Origin: a virus
Direction: 5' to 3' (one strand)
Length of the DNA: 20,642 nucleotides
Virus record (IMG/VR): IMGVR_UViG_3300042691_024610
Coordinates: 1-20,642 of that record
Shown here: in pieces, positions 1,443-18,800 of the stretch
How the letters are laid out: each line of letters starts with the position of its first letter
Position numbering within the stretch: position 1 is the stretch's first letter
Notes under the pieces: generated by a model
What the model saw: only the letters and a program-made list of their open reading frames with translations
Database searches by the model: none
Told to the model about the DNA's origin: nothing
Made by a program: the position numbers and the translations under genes

Positions 1443-1831
1443 ACGACGCCTTTCTTTCGATTGTCACCCCTCGCACACACGACGTGCCGAAGCCGCTGCG
1501 CGGACGCGATCTGCTGCTAGTGCGGGCGCGAAAGCGCGGTGACATTCAGCGAGTGTTTCCGAGCGTGCGTGTAACACGCACACCGAATCGCGACTACGCC
1601 TTCCGGGCGTTTGTACCGCGCCCACGCGTGATCGACGCGATTGGGCAGCGCCTCCTCGACATGGAGTATGGGAACTTCAAGGACTCGGTGGCGAACGACG
1701 AGCGCCACAGCGCCTACTCAAAGGTCTGGTCGGTGATGTACAGCTATCAGCACAACGACTACCAGCCACGCCGGGACACCTATGACCGCGGATACGACCT
1801 CTGGCCTGACGAACATTACGCGGGCAACTAG
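1427..1831 (+). CDS. conserved phage protein, unknown function
   Basis: A 134-residue protein beginning MWIFLNDAFLSIV, a start typical of a conserved family of small phage proteins. DLLLVRARKRGDIQRVFP and a central FRAFVPRP segment follow, and then a basic region with NFKDSV...HSAYSKVWSVMY. The family is recognised by pattern only, and no enzymatic motif is visible. A GAGGA ribosome binding site lies about 9 bases before the ATG. The last part is Tyr/Asp-rich. The gene converges on the helicase gene, and the two TAG stops share the palindromic CTAG at 1828-1831, leaving no room for an intergenic terminator. Confidence 0.7.
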   Translation: MWIFLNDAFLSIVTPRTHDVPKPLRGRDLLLVRARKRGDIQRVFPSVRVTRTPNRDYAFRAFVPRPRVIDAIGQRLLDMEYGNFKDSVANDERHSAYSKVWSVMYSYQHNDYQPRRDTYDRGYDLWPDEHYAGN

Positions 1832-3267
1832 CGAATGTTGAACCGCCGTTGTTCGAAGATGTACTCGGCCTCCTCATCGCCGGGGACACCGATCAAGTCG
1901 TGATAGCGTGACTTCGCCACGCGAATGAGCGTGTGGTCGGCGTAGCGGTGAACCACCACACCGATATCTGCCTTGTTGTACCAGTGCGCCGAGTCCGAGA
2001 TATCGTAGAGCGTCGGGACGCGGTACTCGCCCTTGTCATCCTTCTGCTGCTTGGCAGGGTGCGCGACAATCACTACGTGGACCATTAGCTTCCGAGCGAA
2101 GCGGCGCAGCGCCTTGATAGCGCGGCCCGTATACTCGGTGAGGCTTTCCTCCCGGCTCCGAGCGTGGTCCATCTCATTCCACGGGTCGATGACAACCACT
2201 TTGCATCCGTGCTGAATCACCGCGGCCTCGGCTTTGTCGAGCATCCACTCCAGCGTGACATCCTCGTCCTCGTTCGGCACGAGGAACGTAAAGTGCTGGT
2301 CGATCCATTGGTCCGCGGCGGCTAACTCGCGGCTGTCGCAAAAGCTCGTCGGCTTCTGGCAAAACCATGTGCGGAGGTTGCGTCGATGGTCGCGCTGCGG
2401 CATCTGCTCAAACGACGCAAAGGCCACGTTCAAACCGTACCGCTGCACGATCCGGCAGAAGATATCGTTGACCACAGACGACTTGCCATGCGACGGAATG
2501 CCGGTGAAGACCGCAACGTCGCCGAGGCGCACCTTGTAGCGCTCCACTAGCTTCGGCATCGGGATGTCGAACACCGGCGCATCAGGGACCGGTGGCAACT
2601 CGCTCATTCGGTAGACGCCGTCGACCCGTAGCCATTGCGCCCGAGACAGCGTCGCGTCAACGCCCTTCGGGCCGTAATGGATCAAAACCTCGTTGAGGTC
2701 TTTGAGCCGCCGCTCGCGGTCCTCTGGATGCTTGGGATAGGTGACGTACTTGCAGCGAAACCGCCCGAGACGCACCGACAGGTCTTGCAGCAGATTTGCT
2801 CCCGGCGCATCGCCGTCTACCGCGAGGATGACTTCAGTCACGCGCTCAACGGATAGCAGCGACCGCGCCTCTTGCAAGAAGGCGTACTTCCCGCTGTCGT
2901 TTGGCAGCGGCTTGTCCGGTGCGCCGCCGGGGACCGATACGCTTCGCAGCCACCCAGACTGGATCGCTGCCAGTGCGTCGAGTTCGCCCTCGGTGATGAC
3001 CAGCGGTTTGCCGATCAACGAGTCATCGCGGAGGATGTCCTCGTTCCAGAAACATTGCACGCCGCCCTTATCCTGCCAGAACCGTTTTTCTTCGCCCAGC
3101 GTTCGAAACTTTCTGTTGACCACTTTCCCTTCGCGTAGGAAGGGAATGCACAGCGCCTCAATACCACCGGTTCCAGCGAGGGCGTGCAGCCCCAGCTTGA
3201 GCGCCAGCTCTGGGTCGATATGCCTCGCTTCCAGCCCCTCTTGAATCGAATGAGTTAACCCTTCCAC
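1828..3267 (-). CDS. Toprim primase / DnaB-type replicative helicase (T7 gp4-like), lacking its own zinc domain
   Basis: Replication protein with an N-terminal Toprim primase core and a C-terminal RecA-type hexameric helicase. On the chosen start (479 aa), the Toprim glutamate motif TEGELDAL is near residues 92-99 and the DGD metal motif near 151-153. Walker A GIPSHGKSS is near 256-264 and Walker B VVVIDPWNE near 357-365, followed by the helicase-like IVAHPAKQQ. The frame extends upstream to a GTG at 3288, but there is no ribosome binding site there. The GTG at 3267 has GGAGGA four bases upstream, so it is preferred. The zinc finger usually at the front of such proteins is encoded by the upstream gene in a different frame. 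It should prime and unwind phage DNA at the fork. Confidence 0.9.
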   Translation of the reverse strand: MEGLTHSIQEGLEARHIDPELALKLGLHALAGTGGIEALCIPFLREGKVVNRKFRTLGEEKRFWQDKGGVQCFWNEDILRDDSLIGKPLVITEGELDALAAIQSGWLRSVSVPGGAPDKPLPNDSGKYAFLQEARSLLSVERVTEVILAVDGDAPGANLLQDLSVRLGRFRCKYVTYPKHPEDRERRLKDLNEVLIHYGPKGVDATLSRAQWLRVDGVYRMSELPPVPDAPVFDIPMPKLVERYKVRLGDVAVFTGIPSHGKSSVVNDIFCRIVQRYGLNVAFASFEQMPQRDHRRNLRTWFCQKPTSFCDSRELAAADQWIDQHFTFLVPNEDEDVTLEWMLDKAEAAVIQHGCKVVVIDPWNEMDHARSREESLTEYTGRAIKALRRFARKLMVHVVIVAHPAKQQKDDKGEYRVPTLYDISDSAHWYNKADIGVVVHRYADHTLIRVAKSRYHDLIGVPGDEEAEYIFEQRRFNIR

Positions 3268-3493
3268 CTGTTCCTCCGCTCCATCCACAGTGAAAACAAT
3301 GCCAAACGGCCCGCCCGTCCTCTAACTGCCCCCCGTGTATCTGTGTCGGCCCAACCGCGACGCTTAAGCACGGCTTGCGCTTGTTGCCGCTCTTGCGCGT
3401 GTCGCTGCACTTCGGGCAGACGGTGTAGTGGTTCCCCGGCTCGTAGTTCCGTAGCCGGATGCCATCCGCGTTGAGTTTCTCGGCGACGCTCAT
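3158..3493 (-). CDS. primase zinc-finger protein (zinc-binding domain of the split primase-helicase)
   Basis: A 111-residue protein with VCPKCSDTRKSGNKRKPCLSV and VWHCFHCGWSGG, two CxxC knuckles arranged as in the zinc-binding domain that lets T7 gp4-like primases read template sequence. After the second knuckle the sequence degenerates into Arg/Ala/Gly-rich residues, and it ends inside the helicase gene. In most relatives the same domain is fused directly to the Toprim domain. Here the Toprim-helicase lies in the +1 frame and the two frames overlap by about 110-130 bases. The start is the ATG at 3493, which shares one base with the TGA of the replication gene (TGATG). The frame also extends upstream to 3580, but that part is Arg-rich shadow. 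Whether this is a separate subunit, a frameshifted product or a disrupted gene is open. Confidence 0.75.
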   Translation of the reverse strand: MSVAEKLNADGIRLRNYEPGNHYTVCPKCSDTRKSGNKRKPCLSVAVGPTQIHGGQLEDGRAVWHCFHCGWSGGTGGRVNSFDSRGAGSEAYRPRAGAQAGAARPRWNRWY

Positions 3494-4281
3494 CAGCCGC
3501 CCACCCCGAAGGCGTCGCGGCCTACCGCACCAGCCCGCTTGCTTGCGGCCACATCGTCCCACCGGCCTTGGTTCAGCCACGTAGTCGGGTGCGCGATGTA
3601 CTTCTCATCCTTGCCCGCGGTAGTCGCTGCGTAGGCTTGAGCGCCCAAGAGTAGGCGAGGGGTCGCCTCGGCCCCGAGAAGGCGCTTGGCGGTCTGGTAA
3701 GCGCGGAACGCGGCGAGCTTGCCCACCTTCCGCGGATATGCGGACCACCACTCTTCGTATTCCTGAGTGAAACTGACGGTACGCCTACCTTTCTCACCGG
3801 CATGAGAGTCGGTATTAACTCTCGCGACAGCCGTAGGCTGATCGATAGTTTTATCTTCTGAAGTAGAAGATGAAGATGAAGATGAAGGGGTTGGCTTTTG
3901 CTTGTCGACAAGGTTATGCTTTTGGTTAAGCAACGTGGGGTTTCCACCAAGCCTACCTGCAGCAGCACGGACGTTTCTCAGTTGTTCATCCCGAATCATT
4001 CGGCGGCTAAAAATCGCGCCGGTCTCATCGCGGGAATACACCCCGGCAGACTCCAGTTCGTCCAGCAGTCCTTGCACCAAATCCATCGGCTCGCCGACCG
4101 CTCGACTGATCTGCAGGTCTGTCATCGGCTTGCCGTTGACCGCCAGCACGCCGTACGGACTAGCCTCGTGCATGATGCACATGAGTTCGATCCACAGACC
4201 TCGTGCAGCCAGACTACACGTCGAAAGAGACGGGTCTTTGCGCCAATCGGCTGGGTAGAACTGGAACGCGGGGCGCTTCAT
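3493..4281 (-). CDS. phage replication initiator-like protein (DUF1376/O-like N-domain, Ser linker, C-terminal WLNxGRW domain)
   Basis: A 262-residue protein. The N-terminal 110 residues (FQFYPADWRKDPSLSTCSLAARGLWIEL...) match a phage family with a winged-helix-like replication fold. A low-complexity serine linker, SSSSSSSTSED, follows. The C-terminal part (YEEWWSAYPRKVGKLAAFRAYQTA...YIAHPTTWLNQGRW) is the usual tail of phage replication proteins that lie beside helicase genes. It probably recognises the phage origin and recruits the helicase encoded downstream. The ATG at 4281 is chosen because it gives the canonical family start MKRPAFQFYPADW and has a GGGGG stretch upstream. An in-frame ATG at 4344 falls inside the presumed operator region. 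The next gene overlaps its stop codon by one base. Confidence 0.8.
   Translation of the reverse strand: MKRPAFQFYPADWRKDPSLSTCSLAARGLWIELMCIMHEASPYGVLAVNGKPMTDLQISRAVGEPMDLVQGLLDELESAGVYSRDETGAIFSRRMIRDEQLRNVRAAAGRLGGNPTLLNQKHNLVDKQKPTPSSSSSSSTSEDKTIDQPTAVARVNTDSHAGEKGRRTVSFTQEYEEWWSAYPRKVGKLAAFRAYQTAKRLLGAEATPRLLLGAQAYAATTAGKDEKYIAHPTTWLNQGRWDDVAASKRAGAVGRDAFGVGG
3866..3887. repeat. tandem GAAGAT hexamers in the replication gene linker (possible origin iterons)
   Basis: GAAGAT repeats about 3.7 times on the + strand, encoding the serine run on the - strand. The flanking stretch to 3930 is clearly more AT-rich than its surroundings. It contains the 12-base palindrome CTTGTCGACAAG (3901-3912), flanked by two GCTTTTG copies (3894-3900 and 3918-3924). 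Lambdoid phages place origin iterons in the linker of the O gene. Assigning an origin here is an inference by analogy, and the repeats may be only a serine-rich linker. Confidence 0.35.
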
Positions 4282-4337
4282 GGTCGCCCCCGGGTTTGTT
4301 CTATTCGTGATACTGACGGCACGCTTTCCTCCAATCG

Positions 4338-4355
4338 CTGTCATGCCCGTGATAA
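4338..4355 (-). promoter_or_regulatory. repressor operator at the leftward promoter (OL-like)
   Basis: The 18 bases ctgtcatgcccgtgataa recur identically at 5498-5515. On the - strand the core is TATCACGGGCATGA. It overlaps the -10 hexamer of the leftward promoter by four bases, where a bound repressor would exclude RNA polymerase. An additional CGTGATA half-match lies downstream at 4306-4312. Confidence 0.6.
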
Positions 4356-7323: not shown

Positions 7324-7588
7324 AGGCGACTTTGAGGCACGACTAGGAGAGACATTTCGTGTCATCCGGCGGTCTCGTTCTGTATGGCTGCGCGATCTGG
7401 CGAAGGTGCTGGGCGTATCGGTCAACACCATTCGGTGGCACGAGAACGGCGCACGGATGATGCGTGCTGACCTGATCGTTAAGGCCGCGGAACACATGAG
7501 CGTCGAACCGGGAGTGCTGCTCGGCGAAACCCGCGAAGAAATCACTATCACAGAGGAAATACCCCATGGCATCGAAGCAAACGCATGA
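7301..7588 (+). CDS. XRE-family helix-turn-helix protein (possible Cro-like regulator)
   Basis: A 95-residue protein with a single HTH_3 domain: RSVWLRDLAKVLGVSVNTIRWHENGARMMRADLIVKAAEHMSVEPGVLLG, in which LRDLAKVLGVSVNTIRWHENG is the helix-turn-helix. It starts at the ATG at 7301, with GAGGG upstream, inside the end of bet. The stop overlaps the SSB-like gene by 23 bases. Its place within an early operon suggests a Cro-like or early regulator, which is inference. The Trp/Arg-containing recognition helix differs from that of the repressor, so shared operators cannot be assumed. Confidence 0.75.
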   Translation: MATVPTPKGDFEARLGETFRVIRRSRSVWLRDLAKVLGVSVNTIRWHENGARMMRADLIVKAAEHMSVEPGVLLGETREEITITEEIPHGIEANA

Positions 7589-7889
7589 CCTCGTCCTGAA
7601 GGTGGGCGAGTACACCGACCGCACCGGCGCGACCAAAGCTCGCACCAAGAACATCGGCGCGGTCTATACGAAGGACGACGGGTCCATGTTTCTCGCCATC
7701 GACTCGCTGGTCATTGCGATGGAGACCCAGTACGTGGCGAATAAGGACCGCTCGGACAGGGTGATGGTGTCGGTCTACCCCGTGCGCGAGAAGTCGTACG
7801 GCGACAGCCCCGCACCAACCCGCAGCGCCACCCCGGCGACGCCCGCTCCGGCAGCCGCTGCCGATCCGAACGATGACATTCCGTTCTGA
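7566..7889 (+). CDS. single-stranded DNA-binding-like protein with acidic SSB-type C-tail
   Basis: A 107-residue protein. The N-terminal 75 residues (THDLVLKVGEYTDRTGATKARTKNIGAVYTKDDGSMFLAID) are a beta-rich domain like small phage proteins found beside annealases. A Pro/Ala-rich linker then leads to the terminal NDDIPF. DDIPF is the conserved tip by which bacterial SSB proteins recruit partners. The domain is shorter than the usual OB fold, so the SSB call rests on the tail and on its position behind exonuclease and annealase genes. GAGGAA precedes the ATG. It may protect single strands during recombination or replication. Confidence 0.6.
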   Translation: MASKQTHDLVLKVGEYTDRTGATKARTKNIGAVYTKDDGSMFLAIDSLVIAMETQYVANKDRSDRVMVSVYPVREKSYGDSPAPTRSATPATPAPAAAADPNDDIPF

Positions 7890-8584: not shown

Positions 8585-9091
8585 ATGAGCTATTTGGTGT
8601 TCAAAGACCAGAAGTCGTTCATGAACTACTTCCGGCAGGAGCCGTCGTCCGCGACCGCGGAGCTATACAAGCGGCTCTGCGACGAAGAGTTCGCGGAGCT
8701 AGAAGAGGCGTGGAAAGAGCATCTGCGGCAGCCGAGCGAAGGCTCGGTGACCGAGATTGCCGATGCGTGCCTTGACCTGATCTACGTCGCCAGCGGGCTG
8801 ATGCACGCGCTGGGACTCGACCCGCAACCGCTGTGGGACGAGGTGCATCGCAGCAACGTCGACAAGATCAAGCACGCGTGCCTTTCCTGTGAGGCCACCG
8901 GCACTGTCGTGTACATCGACGACCAAGAGCGTCGGTCCCAACAGCCGTGTTCGGCGTGCAAGGGGCAGGGCTTCGTCTACGAAGTCCGTCGCCGCGAGGA
9001 CGGCAAGGTGCTGAAGCCCGGGGGCTGGATGCCGCCACAACTCCTGCCGCTCGTTCAAGGAATGGTGCGGCCTCGGGAGCCACAAGCGTGA
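8585..9091 (+). CDS. MazG-like NTP pyrophosphohydrolase with inserted zinc finger
   Basis: A 168-residue all-alpha NTP-PPase relative. The EExxE metal motif appears in LCDEEFAELEEAW (about residues 32-43) and the second acidic set in TEIADACLDLIYVASGL (56-72). HRSNVDKI near 88-95 and RREDGKVLKPGGWMPP near 136-151 complete the family. Between the last two sits an extra DnaJ-like finger, CLSCEATG and CSACKGQG (Cys99, 102, 122, 125), which many relatives lack. The enzyme would hydrolyse nucleoside triphosphates, possibly house-cleaning or altering nucleotide pools. It starts directly after the membrane peptide, and the end is coupled to the next gene by GTGA. Confidence 0.8.
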   Translation: MSYLVFKDQKSFMNYFRQEPSSATAELYKRLCDEEFAELEEAWKEHLRQPSEGSVTEIADACLDLIYVASGLMHALGLDPQPLWDEVHRSNVDKIKHACLSCEATGTVVYIDDQERRSQQPCSACKGQGFVYEVRRREDGKVLKPGGWMPPQLLPLVQGMVRPREPQA

Positions 9092-9582: not shown

Positions 9583-9858
9583 GTGAGGATTACGGTTCAG
9601 CAATGTGCGGAGCGACTCGGTGTCTCGCCGAGGACCGTCTTGCGCCTTTGCGTCAGCGGACAGATACCCAGCGCCATTCAGGTCGGGAAGCGATGGACTA
9701 TCGACGAGACCGCAATCCGCGGTTGGATGGAAAGGAAGGAACAGCGATGTCAGGCAACATCTACCGGCGAGGAAAGACGTGGTGGGGTCGGCTACAGGTC
9801 CGGGGTGTTGAGTACCGACGAAGCCTACGCACGGCTGATGAGGCCACAGCCAAGCTAG
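9583..9858 (+). CDS. xis: excisionase-like MerR/HTH_17 DNA-binding protein
   Basis: A 91-residue protein, GTG start. The first 50 residues form a winged HTH of the excisionase/HTH_17 type: ITVQQCAERLGVSPRTVLRLCVSGQIPSAIQVGKRWTIDETAIRGWMERKE. This shape bends att DNA and directs the integrase to excision, or acts as a regulator. The position directly before and overlapping integrase by 112 bases fits Xis. The residues after about 50 lie in the overlap and look unconstrained, so the domain is confined to the non-overlapping part. The GTG follows the previous stop by one base. Confidence 0.7.
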   Translation: MRITVQQCAERLGVSPRTVLRLCVSGQIPSAIQVGKRWTIDETAIRGWMERKEQRCQATSTGEERRGGVGYRSGVLSTDEAYARLMRPQPS

Positions 9859-10871
9859 CGCTCGCGGACTGGAAGGCGCAGCTGGGCAAAGGCGAGGGCG
9901 GCGGTGATGCCACGTGGCGGGCTGCGGTCGTCGCGTGGTCCGAGACCATAGGGTCGATGGAGCAGGGCGGTGGCGGGCTTAAACCGCGGGTGCGGGACCG
10001 CTACCTCGACAGCCTACGACTGTTCGACCACTTCTGGTGCAACAAGCGCCTGTCCGAGATCGGGCGACGCGAGATCGCCGACTTCATACGGGAGCGAAAG
10101 AAGGGCTTCGTGCGGCGCGGTCCGGACGGCAAGCTCAAGCAGATGGGGCCGGTCTCCAACTACTCCGTCCTGTGCGATCTGACCGCCGCGTCGAGCGTGT
10201 TCCGGGTCGCGGTGGCGTCTGGGATGTGCGACCACAACCCAGCTCGCGAGTGGGACCGAAAGCTCGTGCGCCCCCGGAAGCGGGTCATGGTGCCGCCCAC
10301 GCTGGAGGCCATCGAGACGGTTGCCTCGTACGCGACCGGCAACGTCGGTCGCTTGATCCTGTTTGCCGCCAATACCGGGATGCGCCTGATGGAGGCGGTC
10401 ACCCTCGACTGGCGGGAGGTTCGGGAGGACCGGGGCGAGGTGCTGCTGACGCAGACCAAGGTCTCGCGCCCGCGGGTCGTAAGGCTCAAAACGCCGGGGG
10501 GAGATGCGACCGGCACACTGGCTGGCACACCCCGGCACATCCGATCACACCTCGTGTTTGGGCAGGGCGTCGATGGCGAGCAACTCGCCAGCCCAGCCGG
10601 AGCGTTCCGGCACGTGATGCAGCGGGCGATCAACGGAGAGGCGGTACAAGGCCGCGCTTTACGGCGATTCCGCTTCCACGACTTACGGCACGCCTTTGCG
10701 GTGCGGTGGCTGCTGGCGGGCGGGGACATCTACGGGCTGTCGAAGCACCTCGGGCACACCTCGGTCAAGACGACCGAGATATACCTCGCGTACCTCCCGG
10801 CCTACGAGGAAAGCATCCGGCACACCGCTGGCACAATGCCACCCCTTTGCGGCGACCAGCAGATCGCGTAA
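9747..10871 (+). CDS. int: tyrosine recombinase, phage integrase
   Basis: A 374-residue integrase. An N-terminal arm-type domain (SGNIYRRGKTWWGRLQVRGVEYRRSLRT) is followed by a SAM-like core-binding domain to about residue 180, then the catalytic domain. The catalytic set is visible as Arg213 in NTGMRLMEAVTLDW, Lys238 in LLTQTKVSRPR, His311 and Arg314 in FHDLRHAFAV, His337 in LGHTSV, and Tyr346 in KTTEIYLAY. All six positions are present, so it should be active. The ATG at 9747 has AAGGAAGGA upstream. The frame also extends upstream to 9603, but that region is the Xis gene. The downstream att/tRNA region is the expected recombination target. Confidence 0.92.
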   Translation: MSGNIYRRGKTWWGRLQVRGVEYRRSLRTADEATAKLALADWKAQLGKGEGGGDATWRAAVVAWSETIGSMEQGGGGLKPRVRDRYLDSLRLFDHFWCNKRLSEIGRREIADFIRERKKGFVRRGPDGKLKQMGPVSNYSVLCDLTAASSVFRVAVASGMCDHNPAREWDRKLVRPRKRVMVPPTLEAIETVASYATGNVGRLILFAANTGMRLMEAVTLDWREVREDRGEVLLTQTKVSRPRVVRLKTPGGDATGTLAGTPRHIRSHLVFGQGVDGEQLASPAGAFRHVMQRAINGEAVQGRALRRFRFHDLRHAFAVRWLLAGGDIYGLSKHLGHTSVKTTEIYLAYLPAYEESIRHTAGTMPPLCGDQQIA

Positions 10872-10984: not shown

Positions 10985-11075
10985 GGTGGGGTGGCCGAGA
11001 GGTTTATGGCTCCAGTCTTGAAAACTGGCGAAGTTTCAAAGACTTCCGTGGGTTCGAATCCCACCCCCACCGCCA
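10985..11075 (+). tRNA. tRNA-Ser, anticodon UGA (CCA encoded)
   Basis: All arms can be drawn. The 7-base acceptor stem GGTGGGG pairs with CCCCACC. The D-arm has GCC/GGC with the GAGAGGTTTAT loop. The anticodon stem CCAGT/ACTGG has loop CTTGAAA and anticodon TGA at 11019-11021. A long variable arm (GAAGT/ACTTC) shows a class II tRNA. The T-arm is GTGGG-TTCGAAT-CCCAC. The discriminator G and encoded CCA follow. It reads UCA and other UCN serine codons. No mismatch is seen, so it should be functional. A complete tRNA beside int may be a phage-borne gene or a captured host attachment site. Confidence 0.95.
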
Positions 11076-12886: not shown

Positions 12887-15800
12887 TACCGGATACCCAT
12901 TGCAAGAATGTCGATAGTCGTAATGATGACGCGATTAGCGGTTCCCGCTCGGCAGCGCAATTGGTACGAGCGCCCGAGCGTCGTCGTCAGTTCGGGGACG
13001 AACAGGCTGGTCGAGCGCTGCGATTGGTTAAGCACCGATACGTCGCGCACTTGAGTGTATGTGCCGACGACGCCATTGCCGAGCGATGGTCGAGCGCGGA
13101 CATACGGGCTGCCAAGCGATGTGCCATACGCCGCAACGTAGACGATCTGCTGCGTCCCGTTCATGTACACGCTGTCGACCGTTCCCACCTCTGCGAAGCT
13201 ATTTGTGAGGGTGTCGCCGACCTGAATGTCCTGCGCGTTGTAAAACGTCAATATCCAGCCGATTTGCTCGTAGATTCCAAACTCCCACTCATACCAGTAC
13301 CAGAACTCTTGCACATTTGGAGTAACCGAAATATTGGAAACGGTCTGCCCGTTGCCGACTGGAGCCGAGTAGAGGCTGATGTAGAAGTTCGACGCCAAGG
13401 CCGTGCCGCTTAACACGTTGACCTGCACATACGGCTTGTGCCCGTTCGGGTGCGTTGCCGCCGGAAGCTGCACGGTTAGGTATGTCGTCTCGTAAGTCGG
13501 CACATACGCGCCGTTCGAACTGCCTTGCCCCGTCACGTACGTCGTGATGTCGCCGGTAAGCTTATTGACGTTGAGGTTGTCAATCTTGGCGTTGGTAATG
13601 ACGCCATCGCCAATTTGCGCTGACGCGGTGATGACGCTGGTCGCCGCCAACTTTGCAGCGGTGATTGCACCTGCGCTTATCTTGTCTGCCGTAATCGCGT
13701 TCGCCGCAATCTTGTCCGCGGTCACCTCGCCAGCCGCAATCTTTCCCGCCGTGATTGCGTTCGCCGCAATCTTGTCTGACGTAATCGAGTCGGCGGCTAT
13801 CTTGCTGGCGTTGACGGCGTTCGCAGCAATCTCGTCTGCCGAGATAGCCCCGGCGGCTATGTTGCCTGCCGTAATCGTATCGGCGGCGATCTTTCCACCA
13901 GTAATAGTATTCGCGGCAATCTTGTTGCCCGTAATTGTGTCGGCAGCGATGGTCGATGCGGTGACAGCCCCCGCGGCCAGCTTCGCCGTGGTGATGGCTC
14001 CGGCATCAATCTTTGCAGACGTAATGGCATTCGCAGCGATGGTGTCGGCGGTAACGGCTCCAGCAGCGAGCTTTGCCGTCGTGACCGCGCCAGCCGACAA
14101 CTCCGACGCGGTGATTGCGTTTGCAGCAATCTCATTCGCGGTGACAGCATCTGCGGCGATCTTGCCCGCCGTGATAGCGCCAGCCTCGATTTTTGCCGAT
14201 GTAATCGCGTTTGCGGCGATTGTGTCCGCTGTCACCGCACCAGCCGTTAGCTTCGCGGTTGTGACAGCCCCTGCGGAAATCTCTGCGGCTGTGATTGCAT
14301 TCGCCGCAATCTCGTTCGACGTAATTGAGTCGGCAGCAATCTTGCCCGCGGTGATAGCGCCAGCTGCGATCTTGGCAGACGTAATAGAGTCTGCAGCGAT
14401 CTCGTTTGCGGTCACCGCGTTTGCGGCGATCTTGCCCGCGGTGATAGCCCCGGCGTTGATCTTGGGCGAGGTGATTGCGTTGTCTGATATCTCCGTCGAC
14501 GTGATGGTTCCCGGGAGAATCTCATCCGGACGCGGCCCGAATCCTGATGCAAACTCGCCTTGCTCGACCTGCGGAGCGCAGATATCGATGGAGGCTCCGC
14601 TGGGCAGCGTGCCCGGACCAGAGCCAACCGACCACGAGATGTATAGCTCTCCGCTTGCCGTCGAGCCGTTGTTGTTTGGCTGTACACGCCAGATGTAGCG
14701 CTGCCACGTGCCGTTGATGAGCGCTGGGTTGGCAAGGTTCGTGGCCGAGGAAAACCCCATGTTGGAGTACAGCCCCTCCATGTTGGCACCAGCGGCCCCA
14801 GCGCCGTTTGCACGCGCCCAGAAACTGATGACATACGTGACTCCGGGCGTCCACGTTTGCACCGAGTTCGTGTACATCCCAAACGTACTAGCGACAGCTT
14901 GATTCGCTGTGACGCGATAGTAGTTCGTGCCAAACAAGCCGCCGCTGTTGACGCTTGTCGTTATGGAGTAGCCGCCGTTGTTGTACAGCCCCCAGCCCGT
15001 TGGCATCGAACCGTTGTGCGACTTGAAGGTGGCGTTGCCGAGGAGGTTGCCACCGCCGCCCTGTACGTTCAGCTGCGCTGCGGTGAGCTGCCCAGCAATC
15101 TTGGCTGCAGAAATAGCAGCGAGTTGGGCGTCACTCAATTGACCGGTAATCTTTGTCGCCGCCAAGTCCGCAATCTGGTTGTTTGCCAGTTGCCCAGAAA
15201 TCTTGGCTGCAGAAATCGCCGCAAGTTGCGAGTCGGTCAGTTGCCCGGAAATTTTGGTCGCCGCGAGGTCCGCAATCTGTGCGTTCGACAGCTGCCCTGT
15301 CACCTTCGACGCAGCTAGCGCAGCGATCTGTGCGTCAGATACCGTGCCGGAGAGATCAGCGGTTGGAACGGTTGCCACGTACGAGGAGCCGTTCCACCGA
15401 TAGAGCTTGCCGTCGGCGGTGTTGAAGATGCTGTTGGTCGACTTGGCTCCGGGGACTGACGACACGACCGTGACCGGCTCAATACCAGACGCGAACTTTG
15501 CGGTGTTGATTTGTGCGTCCGCAATTTGCGCCGCGACGATCTGGCCGGTGAGGTCCGCAGCAGGAACCGCAGCGGTCCACGCGCTGCCGGTGTAGCGGTA
15601 GAGCTTGTTATCGGTGGTCAGGAACACCATCCGACCAGCAAAGAGGTTCGTTGACGGCAGCGCCGACACGATCTCGTAGCCCGTCTTGACCTTGCTCACC
15701 GAGAACACACGGGTGTAGGTGACGCCGCCGTACACCGCCGACAGGGTCAGCGTGCCGGTGTCGCCGCTCATGGCGGTGACACGGTAATAGCCCTTCGCCT

Positions 15801-18800
15801 GTCCGTTGACCGGCGTGTTGGTCGCCGTATTGATTGTGCCGGTAAGTCCGCTCGCCGTCGCGGAAAGGGTGGCCGAGGCTGTGACGTCGGTGACGCCCTC
15901 ATACACCGTCAGCTGACCGTCGATACCGGAGAACGACGGCACGCTGCCATCGGCGTAGGCGAACACCGTGGTGGCAGCCTTGGTAAGCGTTACCTCGACC
16001 GCGTTCGTGCCGTTTGTCCCGTTTGTACCGTTTGTACCATTGGTGCCGCTCGTACCGGCCCGCGCCTTGGCAACGGTGAACTCCTTGGTGAGGGACTGCC
16101 CGTTGTAAGCCGCTGTGATCGCCAGCGTGGCGTTGTCGGCGCTTGCCGCGGTCACGCGGTAGTAGCCCTTGGGTTGCCCGCTCACGGGCGTATTAGCGCC
16201 TGTGTTGACCGTACCGGTGCAGTTCGTGGCGGTCGCCGAGAGCGTGGCGCTGGCGGTGACATCTGTGTTGCCGTCAAACACCGTGAGTGTGCCCACGGCG
16301 GTCGCAAACGACGCCACGGTCCCAGCGGCGTCTGCGGCGAGCGAAACTGCCTCGTTGGTGAGATTGAGCGCCAGCACGCGGTTGAGGGCCGTGGCGCTCA
16401 CACCGGACGAGAACGCGCCCTTATTGCCGGTCGTGTCTACCGACTTGAGCCAGTAGTACCGGACGCCGTTGGCGCTCTCAAGCCCCAGCCGGTCGTAGGT
16501 GGTCGCCGTGACCTTGGCAAATACGGTGGCCGTCGCCGAGTTGTTGACGGTGTTCTCGTATATCTCGGTTTCCCAGAGATCGTTGTTGGTGGGGTTGTCC
16601 CACGCCAGACGAATGCCGCCCGGAATGGCGGTGGCGCTGACGTTGGTCGCCACGCCAGAGAAGTTGGTCTTGCCGACCACGGTGTGTTCCACCGTCGTCG
16701 ACCATGTACCAGCGGCCCCAGACTCGGCGATGCCGCGGCTACGCAGCTGATAGATATCGCCGACAACCACGCGGTCGATGTACCCGAACGGGTTCGCCCG
16801 CTCTAGCGATAGCACCTCCCAGAACTCGGTGTTCTTGATGCGGTACTGCACCTCAAATCGGTCGATGCGCTCTTGCTGGGTGCTTTCTGGCTGCTGCACG
16901 CCGACGAAGATGCGGTAGTTCAATGAGCCGTCGGCGTTGACGATCACTACCGAGTCATCCGACCGGATGGTGCTGATGTAGACCGGCGGGACTACGCCAG
17001 AGCCGGGAGCGCTCGTGGTCGTGAGAAACGAGTTAAAGGCCGGGATGGCTGCGGTGTCGGCGGTGTACACGCCGTCCTGTGCATCGACGAGCGTGACGGT
17101 GACGTTGAAGTCCTCGGAAGGCTCAATCTTCCGCACAAGCATTGGTGCGGTAACCGATGTCGAGGTGCCAAACATCACGAGGTCACCAACCGCGGGCGAG
17201 TTCGCCGCAGTTGTTGGCGTCGTAATAGTCAGGACCGAGACATAGCCTGTGCCGGGGTTGTTGACCGCCTGCAGCTTTGTGGTGCCGTCGGACTTGCGGG
17301 TCCGCAGTGAATACGACGTGCCTGTTTCAAAGTACACATCGTCGTCGAGCGTCACCGTGATGTTGCTGCCGCTGGTCGTGACCGACTTGACGCGAGTCGC
17401 CATGATGCCAATGCCGATGGCGTCGTGCGAGAACATGACGAGGTCGCCAAGCGTGCAGCGCAGCGCTTCGATGTCCATCTGGACCGTGTGCTGCTCTGGA
17501 CGCAGCTTTGCCACCGCCATGTGATACCGCGCCTCGCGGTATGCCTGCGTTGGGGACGTACACCCGATAAGCTCTAGCGTCTCAAACCGTGTCGCATTGG
17601 CGGCGGTATAGCCGTCGTCGTACACCACGCGCTCGTCAGTCTGATAACCGTTGTCCTTGTTAATGAACAGCACGCGCAGGGCGTGCGGGTAGTCCAAGAA
17701 CAGCTTTGAGCCGCTGTACCCCGTAGAGTTACGCGGAGTGATGTGCTGGATCGGAACGTTCTGCTGGATATCCCGCACGACCGAGTGCTTGCCGTCTCGC
17801 ATCGTGTAGAGAGCGCGAGCATTGCCACCAATGGTTCGCAGAGCGTCAATGACGGAGCCGCCTTCAAGAACGGCGTTAAACGTCCAACGCGGTTCGTTGA
17901 CGCCTGCGGGTGCCGATGCCGCACACGCCGTCGCCCAGTCCGATATCGCAGTCAAATCAATCCGCGAGTCTGGCATGAACGTCTCGCCGCCACGACGCCG
18001 CAGAATGTCTGCGAAAGCCCATGCGGGGTTCGACGTCTTGGTGAACGTCCATGCGCCGCTGCTGTAGACGGGAAGGTAGGACTCCGCGTCGCAGTTGATG
18101 GTCTGCGGCACGCCGTTCAACTGATTGGATGCCTTGATGCGAAGCGCAATCAGCGAGACGTTCTTTTGATTGACCGGATAGTCGGCCTTGATCGTGCGAA
18201 GCGCCGTCCACCACGACAGGTCGACATATTTGCTGCCGCCATTCGCTGTCGTACGCCGTACCCGAACTTGATACTGCCCAGCCGACGGCAGCACCACGCG
18301 ACCGCTTCGGCGAATTGCCGTGCTGCTCGACCCCTTGACCGTGATCTGGCCCGCGGTTCCAAAGCCCGTGTCGGCGCTGTTCGCCCACACAGCGTTGACC
18401 CAGTTGCTCGTTCCGACCGGCGCGTACTGCACCGAGAACGTAACGGTGGCCTCTTTCTGGTTGCCTTTACTGTCGAAGTAGAACAGTCCCTGCGGAAATG
18501 CGATGTCCACCGAGAACTCAATTGCGTTGGTTGCGGTCGTGCGATAGCCGTAGTCGTTGGTCGAGGTAACGGTTCCCGGGTCAACGGGGTTGTACGTGTC
18601 GGAGATACCGTCGTACTGGTAATACTCGCCGTAGTAGCCGTAGCCACCGGGGTAGTAATTAGTGGTCTGATACGGTTCCAAGCGGATCGTGAAGTTGTCC
18701 TCAGTAACCGTCTTGGTAAACAGCGTCAGAGGCGCGTCGTTAGACCACCCCTCACGAATTTCGTAACTGACTCCCTCGTACGCGGAGATCGGCGTCTCTC

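Follow-up and report, generated by a model that had tools for sequence, protein, structure and literature searches.

A T7-type primase-helicase split into two overlapping phage genes, a zinc-ribbon gene and a Toprim-helicase gene in the +1 frame

The stretch of DNA analysed here as a whole, called "the window" below, comprises positions 1-20,642 (20642 bases) of the IMG/VR virus record IMGVR_UViG_3300042691_024610. The genes and signals considered here all lie on its minus strand and are arranged as follows:

3493..4344, minus strand: upstream replication-initiation gene (phrog_270 replication initiation protein, E 6e-22)
3158..3493, minus strand: zinc-ribbon ORF of 111 aa, with ATG at 3493 and stop at 3158; cysteine pairs CPKC (residues 26-29) and CFHC (residues 66-69); tail end RPRWNRWY
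1828..3267, minus strand: Toprim-helicase ORF without a zinc finger, 479 aa, with GTG at 3267 and stop at 1828
3288, minus strand: GTG, alternative start of the Toprim-helicase (486 aa)
3273..3277, minus strand: GGAGG, likely ribosome-binding site, 5 nt before GTG 3267
3158..3267, minus strand: doubly coding overlap of 110 nt, encoding the helicase N-terminus and the basic/aromatic tail of the zinc subunit

The stop codon of the replication-initiation gene overlaps the start of the zinc ORF as TGATGA. The helicase frame is +1 relative to the zinc-ribbon frame; a TAG bounds it ~33 nt before GTG 3288, and it is open thereafter. A preceding sequence-only reading had described the two frames as overlapping by about 110-130 bases and had noticed a ribosome-binding site, GGAGGA, within the GWSGGTG codons of the zinc-finger ORF just before GTG 3267. 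Both observations are borne out: the overlap spans 110 nt if counted from GTG 3267 and 131 nt if counted from GTG 3288, and the Shine-Dalgarno (SD)-like GGAGG (3277-3273) belongs to the GGA GGA codons of the Gly-Gly that follows the second CxxC. The helicase start in the window is a GTG, weaker than the usual ATG, and the mRNA around it is predicted to fold with -10.5 kcal/mol over 70 nt, a value without a control that is given no weight here.

Several other features of the window deserve mention. Some 110 nt past the integrase gene (9603-10871) lies a tRNA-Ser (TGA anticodon, 10985-11075), a possible attachment site. In the 168-aa protein encoded at 8585-9091 a PRA-PH (MazG-like) domain precedes a stretch rich in CxxC motifs, which has a sub-threshold match to the DnaJ central domain, and the 107-aa protein encoded at 7566-7889, without a Pfam match, has the C-terminus NDDIPF, which we take to resemble the tails of single-stranded DNA-binding proteins. 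Diverged tandem repeats with periods from 9 to 102 nt occupy 13679-16057 within a minus-strand ORF of 2197 aa (19479-12886).

The larger of the two overlapping ORFs matches the Pfam families AAA_25, DnaB_C (E 2.7e-09), Toprim_2 and Toprim_4, and its profile aligns to residues 79-535 of T7 gp4 (6n7i, E 7.6e-25), with matches also to Twinkle. Its structural model has a mean pLDDT of 92.4, and in a fold search of the PDB the T7 gp4 chains occupy ranks 1-6 (TM-scores 0.44-0.65). The Toprim residues E93, G94, E95, D151 and D153 are invariant in 30 aligned sequences; E93, D151 and D153 are presumably the catalytic ones. By alignment, residue 1 of the helicase falls near residue ~70 of T7 gp4, and its Arg15 is aligned with T7 Arg84, a residue described in a passage of PMC9198812 as highly conserved in DnaG homologues. 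Two hallmarks of T7 gp4/Twinkle-type proteins, the DnaB-family ring helicase domain and a Toprim domain with Glu and Asp-x-Asp, are thus found in this polypeptide, but the zinc-binding domain is encoded in the other frame. The primase-helicase of the window is a split variant and not a fused member of the T7 gp4 type.

The zinc-ribbon protein is less easily placed. The window's own copy has no match in Pfam or PHROG, a profile search of the PDB gave nothing below E 0.07, and a fold search with its model gave no significant match (best E 0.34). The AlphaFold model is confident for approximately residues 1-77, whereas residues 78-93 and 95-103 have pLDDT <50, so the tail is predicted to be unstructured. 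Since neither fold nor profile identifies the protein, its assignment to primases rests on its position, on the cysteines (which were also the search pattern) and on the PHROG matches of its relatives. Among 54 aligned homologues, 16 match phrog_47 "DNA primase" and 7 match phrog_239 "DNA primase/helicase" (E <= 0.01), in addition to scattered matches to 15 other PHROG families; one matches Zn_ribbon_DnaG (E 0.0047). Both Cys pairs are invariant in the 54 rows, which were selected by that same pattern.

Relatives of the locus were collected from viral contigs with the helicase protein (best 80 of 116) and with the helicase alignment (best 80 of at least 504, 78 of them new), and were supplemented with 8 loci from genome contigs and 6 phage records, from 40 listed among 531 with a helicase match. 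The sequence-only reading had suggested a comparison of relatives, and in the resulting set (the window and 172 further loci) we found 87 of 173 loci with the helicase in the same +1 relation to a separate zinc ORF, and 48 in which the two parts are fused. Two more loci are unfused in another way: in L026 the helicase is in the other frame, and in L045 the two parts are in the same frame with a stop between them. The remaining 36 loci have no classifiable finger; 32 of them begin beyond helicase residue 230 and two (L160, L168) lie at a contig edge, which leaves L035 and L095 as the only pattern-negative loci whose helicase N-terminus is reached away from a contig edge. Inspection by eye shows a variant finger in L035, where the frames are related as in the split loci, and in L095 a finger of the CPLH type that shares the frame of the helicase.

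In a quickly built tree with 83 split and 46 fused helicases (129 in all), one branch with an SH-aLRT value of 100 parts the split from the fused forms, and a change between these states is needed only once. The root of this tree was not inferred, L015 and L039 (short) and identical proteins were left out, and the window is represented by L002, identical to it in the part used. The earlier statement that most relatives have the two parts fused therefore holds for the wider T7 gp4-like family; among the near relatives the opposite is true, as all 83 helicases on the same side of this branch as the window belong to unfused loci. DnaG and T7 gp4 are fused, and hence the split is probably the derived state. 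In the open-access library to which our search was confined, we found no description of a split primase of such kind.

These data bear on two explanations under which the locus would hold no split primase. The possibility of an assembly error, raised by the sequence-only reading, can be dismissed in practice. A single indel in a gene that is really fused could give such a picture, and the 48 fused loci show that the wider family is indeed fused. However, L002, a differently named record of another length (with possibly independent reads), aligns to the window over 7288 bp, including the entire junction, with 2 mismatches and 0 gaps. The same frames are found in L003, L004 and L005 (93% helicase identity) and in L015, the loci that share the frame relation come from records with many sample numbers, and both frames are under constraint (see below); we consider the chance of such an error negligible. 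Because the same layout recurs across a large and diverse group of phages, the split of the T7-type primase-helicase into two overlapping genes is real, old and widespread. Alternatively, the zinc-ribbon gene could encode a separate protein with no part in the primase, e.g. a regulator that happens to sit upstream, as might be suspected from the failure of the window's copy to match any Pfam or PHROG family or known fold. This we regard as very improbable: 16 and 7 of the 54 homologues match the two primase families named above, beside the scattered matches to 15 others, the zinc ORF corresponds in place, order and cysteine pattern to the N-terminus of the fused relatives, and the only two assessable loci that lack a finger by pattern, L035 and L095, both have one by eye.

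Initiation signals for the helicase were sought in 83 de-replicated loci, after removal of L002 (the window's copy) and of three loci with identical local DNA. A signal was scored if an SD-like 4-mer was present 5-16 nt upstream of a start codon located no more than 66 nt after the second CxxC. An ATG with an SD is found in the helicase frame in 60/83 loci, versus 1/83 and 3/83 in the other two frames, and the background inside 82 helicase genes is ~4.7% of in-frame segments of the same length. These frequencies are well beyond what chance would give. When each 60%-identity cluster is reduced to one representative, the numbers are 34/46 versus 0 and 3; with ATG, GTG and TTG all allowed in the 83 loci, they are 67/83 versus 2 and 6. 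The position is also similar, with the start 19-28 nt past the second CxxC in 57 of the 77 loci that have one, and by eye the SD of the relatives lies within lysine/glycine codons after the second CxxC. Thus, as far as sequence signals can tell, a putative ribosome-binding site and a start codon follow the finger as at the internal start of T7 gene 4; the start in the window is, however, out of frame with the upstream part, and not in frame with a long form.

The 16 loci that lack a start with an SD comprise 10 with a start codon and no SD-like 4-mer, and 6 (L023, L090, L091, L093, L119 and L153) without any ATG, GTG or TTG in the stretch examined, although L153 has an ATG outside it, nearer the conserved arginine. 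L039 was scored as a match only through an ATG beside the conserved arginine, and by eye L023 and L089 carry ATC and ATT where their relatives carry ATG. Split loci without the usual start codon and SD at the expected place include L023, L039, L089, L090, L091 and L093. Loci without these signals may use rare starts, may be decaying or may rely on a frameshift.

In order to see what the zinc frame would look like if the helicase alone mattered, we recoded the helicase with synonymous codons according to its own usage. Among the 68 loci with short tails, 57% of the zinc proteins end with W, Y or F (6.6% expected under recoding), the last 14 residues have a net charge of +3.1 (versus +0.7), and there are 1.35 tryptophans (versus 0.30). 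The long-tail loci (15 of the 83, and 12 of the 46 representatives) are excluded from the aromatic count. The notion that the basic/aromatic tail is a mere by-product of helicase codons is thereby rejected for the short-tail group. Nor are the counts explained by relatedness, as the signal is kept on the 46 representatives below 60% identity: 16 of the 34 short-tail representatives have an aromatic end, whereas 500 shuffles gave 2.4 on average and never more than 8. With near-copies included, 44 of 73 short-tail zinc proteins end with W, Y or F and 64 of 73 contain a W among their last 14 residues. Basic-aromatic tails are present also in L026 and L045, though their zinc ORFs overlap the helicase barely or not at all.

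Past the second CxxC, the zinc frame of the 15 long-tail loci runs on for 129 codons on average (mean chance 0.005), and the charge is +2.7 versus +0.5 under recoding; an aromatic C-terminal residue is found in 0 of these 15 proteins. A supported sub-clade of 13 loci (L047, L048, L108, L109, L111, L112, L113, L116, L118, L119, L121, L125 and L129) has zinc frames open for 331-448 nt past the start of the helicase match and zinc proteins of ~172-214 aa; these frames are far longer than synonymous recoding predicts.

Third codon positions of the helicase were compared as well. Between the window and L003, the third base is kept at 15 of 19 four-fold sites in the overlap and at 117 of 207 outside. 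Third-base identity at four-fold sites in short-tail pairs is 104/125 in the overlap versus 907/1278 outside for pairs more than 85% identical, and 758/1468 versus 9465/21146 for pairs at 60-85%. There is no excess in the overlap for short-tail pairs at 45-60% (2188/5958 versus 37350/97213) or at 30-45% (1867/5684 versus 31740/89843).

The remaining alternative is a programmed +1 ribosomal frameshift by which a single primase-helicase is made from the two frames, either alone or alongside the separate products. The relation between the parts is indeed +1 in 87 of the 89 unfused loci, and the usual start is missing from the stretch examined in the 6 loci listed above, with the ATG of L153 lying elsewhere. 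A programmed frameshift would leave the downstream frame without initiation signals of its own, yet 67 of the 83 loci possess them in that frame. In 7 of 77 loci the helicase frame is interrupted by a stop codon downstream of the second CxxC and ahead of the helicase start, so that a shift before that start is barred there. In the product of a shift, the distance between the second CxxC and the Toprim EGE motif would have a median of 98 codons (86 unfused loci, range 82-134) versus 118 in the fused proteins (48 loci, range 104-143). In L045 the two parts share a frame with a stop between them and in L026 they stand in another relation, and a long overlap under selection in both frames would fix the +1 relation without any shift. 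We therefore consider frameshifting improbable as the general explanation; the shift entertained by the sequence-only reading is disfavoured and not needed, even if it may still operate in some of the 16 relatives that lack the start signals.

The reading we prefer, that two overlapping genes are translated separately into the two subunits of the primase-helicase, is in our judgement very probably correct, as far as can be judged from sequence. The suggestion that the phage makes a separate zinc subunit and a finger-less helicase is supported by the layout, by the internal start signals and by the constraint on both frames across a divergent clade. According to this two-subunit scheme, the upstream gene would yield a small zinc-ribbon protein equivalent to the template-recognition part of a DnaG/T7-type primase, and the ribosome-binding site in the glycine codons after the second CxxC would allow a second protein to be begun in the +1 frame, namely a Toprim catalytic core with a ring helicase, without a finger, like the short form of T7 gp4. 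Both proteins would be made, and the finger would work in trans on the Toprim domain of the helicase ring; primase fingers were reportedly found to work in trans by Corn et al. in 2005. The basic, aromatic and unstructured tail, a candidate dock on the helicase ring, would hold the finger there, in the role played by the linker in fused relatives. By eye, fused linkers often contain basic, aromatic and proline residues (e.g. W-x-K-P-x-Y-x-K-P), and 36 of 45 distinct loci (L049 and 44 others) match a loose pattern of this kind, a count without a control; this stretch is a possible counterpart of the tail of the split form.

A more detailed picture can be offered tentatively, with somewhat less than even confidence. 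It envisages a whole clade of phages with a two-subunit T7-type primase. The finger, a diffusible subunit, would dock on the ring through a basic tail with a terminal tryptophan, and the DNA that encodes both this tail and the helicase N-terminus would also contain the ribosome-binding site that sets the ratio of the two subunits. The supply of fingers could then tune the frequency of priming. The finger of one sub-clade (L047, L048, L108 and others) would carry ~75 additional residues, encoded in the alternative frame across the region of the helicase gene that specifies the primase core.

T7 gp4 is a textbook primase-helicase, and among the old questions about it are how its finger works with its own or with a neighbouring subunit and why T7 makes the shorter form. 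A naturally separate finger would make these questions testable with two purified proteins, as the dose of the finger, its docking tail and the helicase activity could each be varied separately. The clade also shows that two genes and a start signal can be packed into ~100 nt and kept so across a deep group.

Comparison with known systems places the split form as follows. The T7 gene 4 protein, with its 63-kDa and 56-kDa forms, is a Toprim-helicase of the same family with an internal start at a similar place. This start is Met64, and the 56-kDa form retains the Toprim part. The chain numbering agrees with a start at Met64, as residue 16 of 5ikn and 1q57 is aligned where 6n7i has residue 79. 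One passage of a review (PMC12593628) words the 56-kDa form as being without the primase domain. The likeness to gp4A/gp4B drawn by the earlier reading thus holds for an internal start at about the same protein position. In T7 this start keeps the frame of the long form, which bears the finger, whereas in the window it is out of frame, the finger is separate with a tail of its own, and so no chain with both finger and helicase, i.e. no fused gp4A-like product, is predicted. Twinkle, the mitochondrial T7-like helicase, shares the family and fold of the window's helicase. In most metazoans, according to a passage of PMC3610141, Twinkle is without the zinc-binding domain. In the window, by contrast, this domain is kept, as a separate gene. 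The fused phage primase-helicases of the phrog_239 type (e.g. L049, L083, L086 and L087) have two like parts in the same order as the window, but in one polypeptide and with a median of ~20 codons more between finger and Toprim than in the split form. A parallel in a named phage is Bradyrhizobium phage BDU-MI-1 (KY940711, L082), which has the same split layout with a helicase 35.5% identical to that of the window, and which is the only one of 50,697 phage records matched by the window's zinc protein at E 1e-3. Its zinc-ribbon gene (L082 2652-2984, KY940711 17539-17871) is unannotated and overlaps the annotated DNA primase/helicase; a small replication gene has thus been missed by annotation in a named phage.
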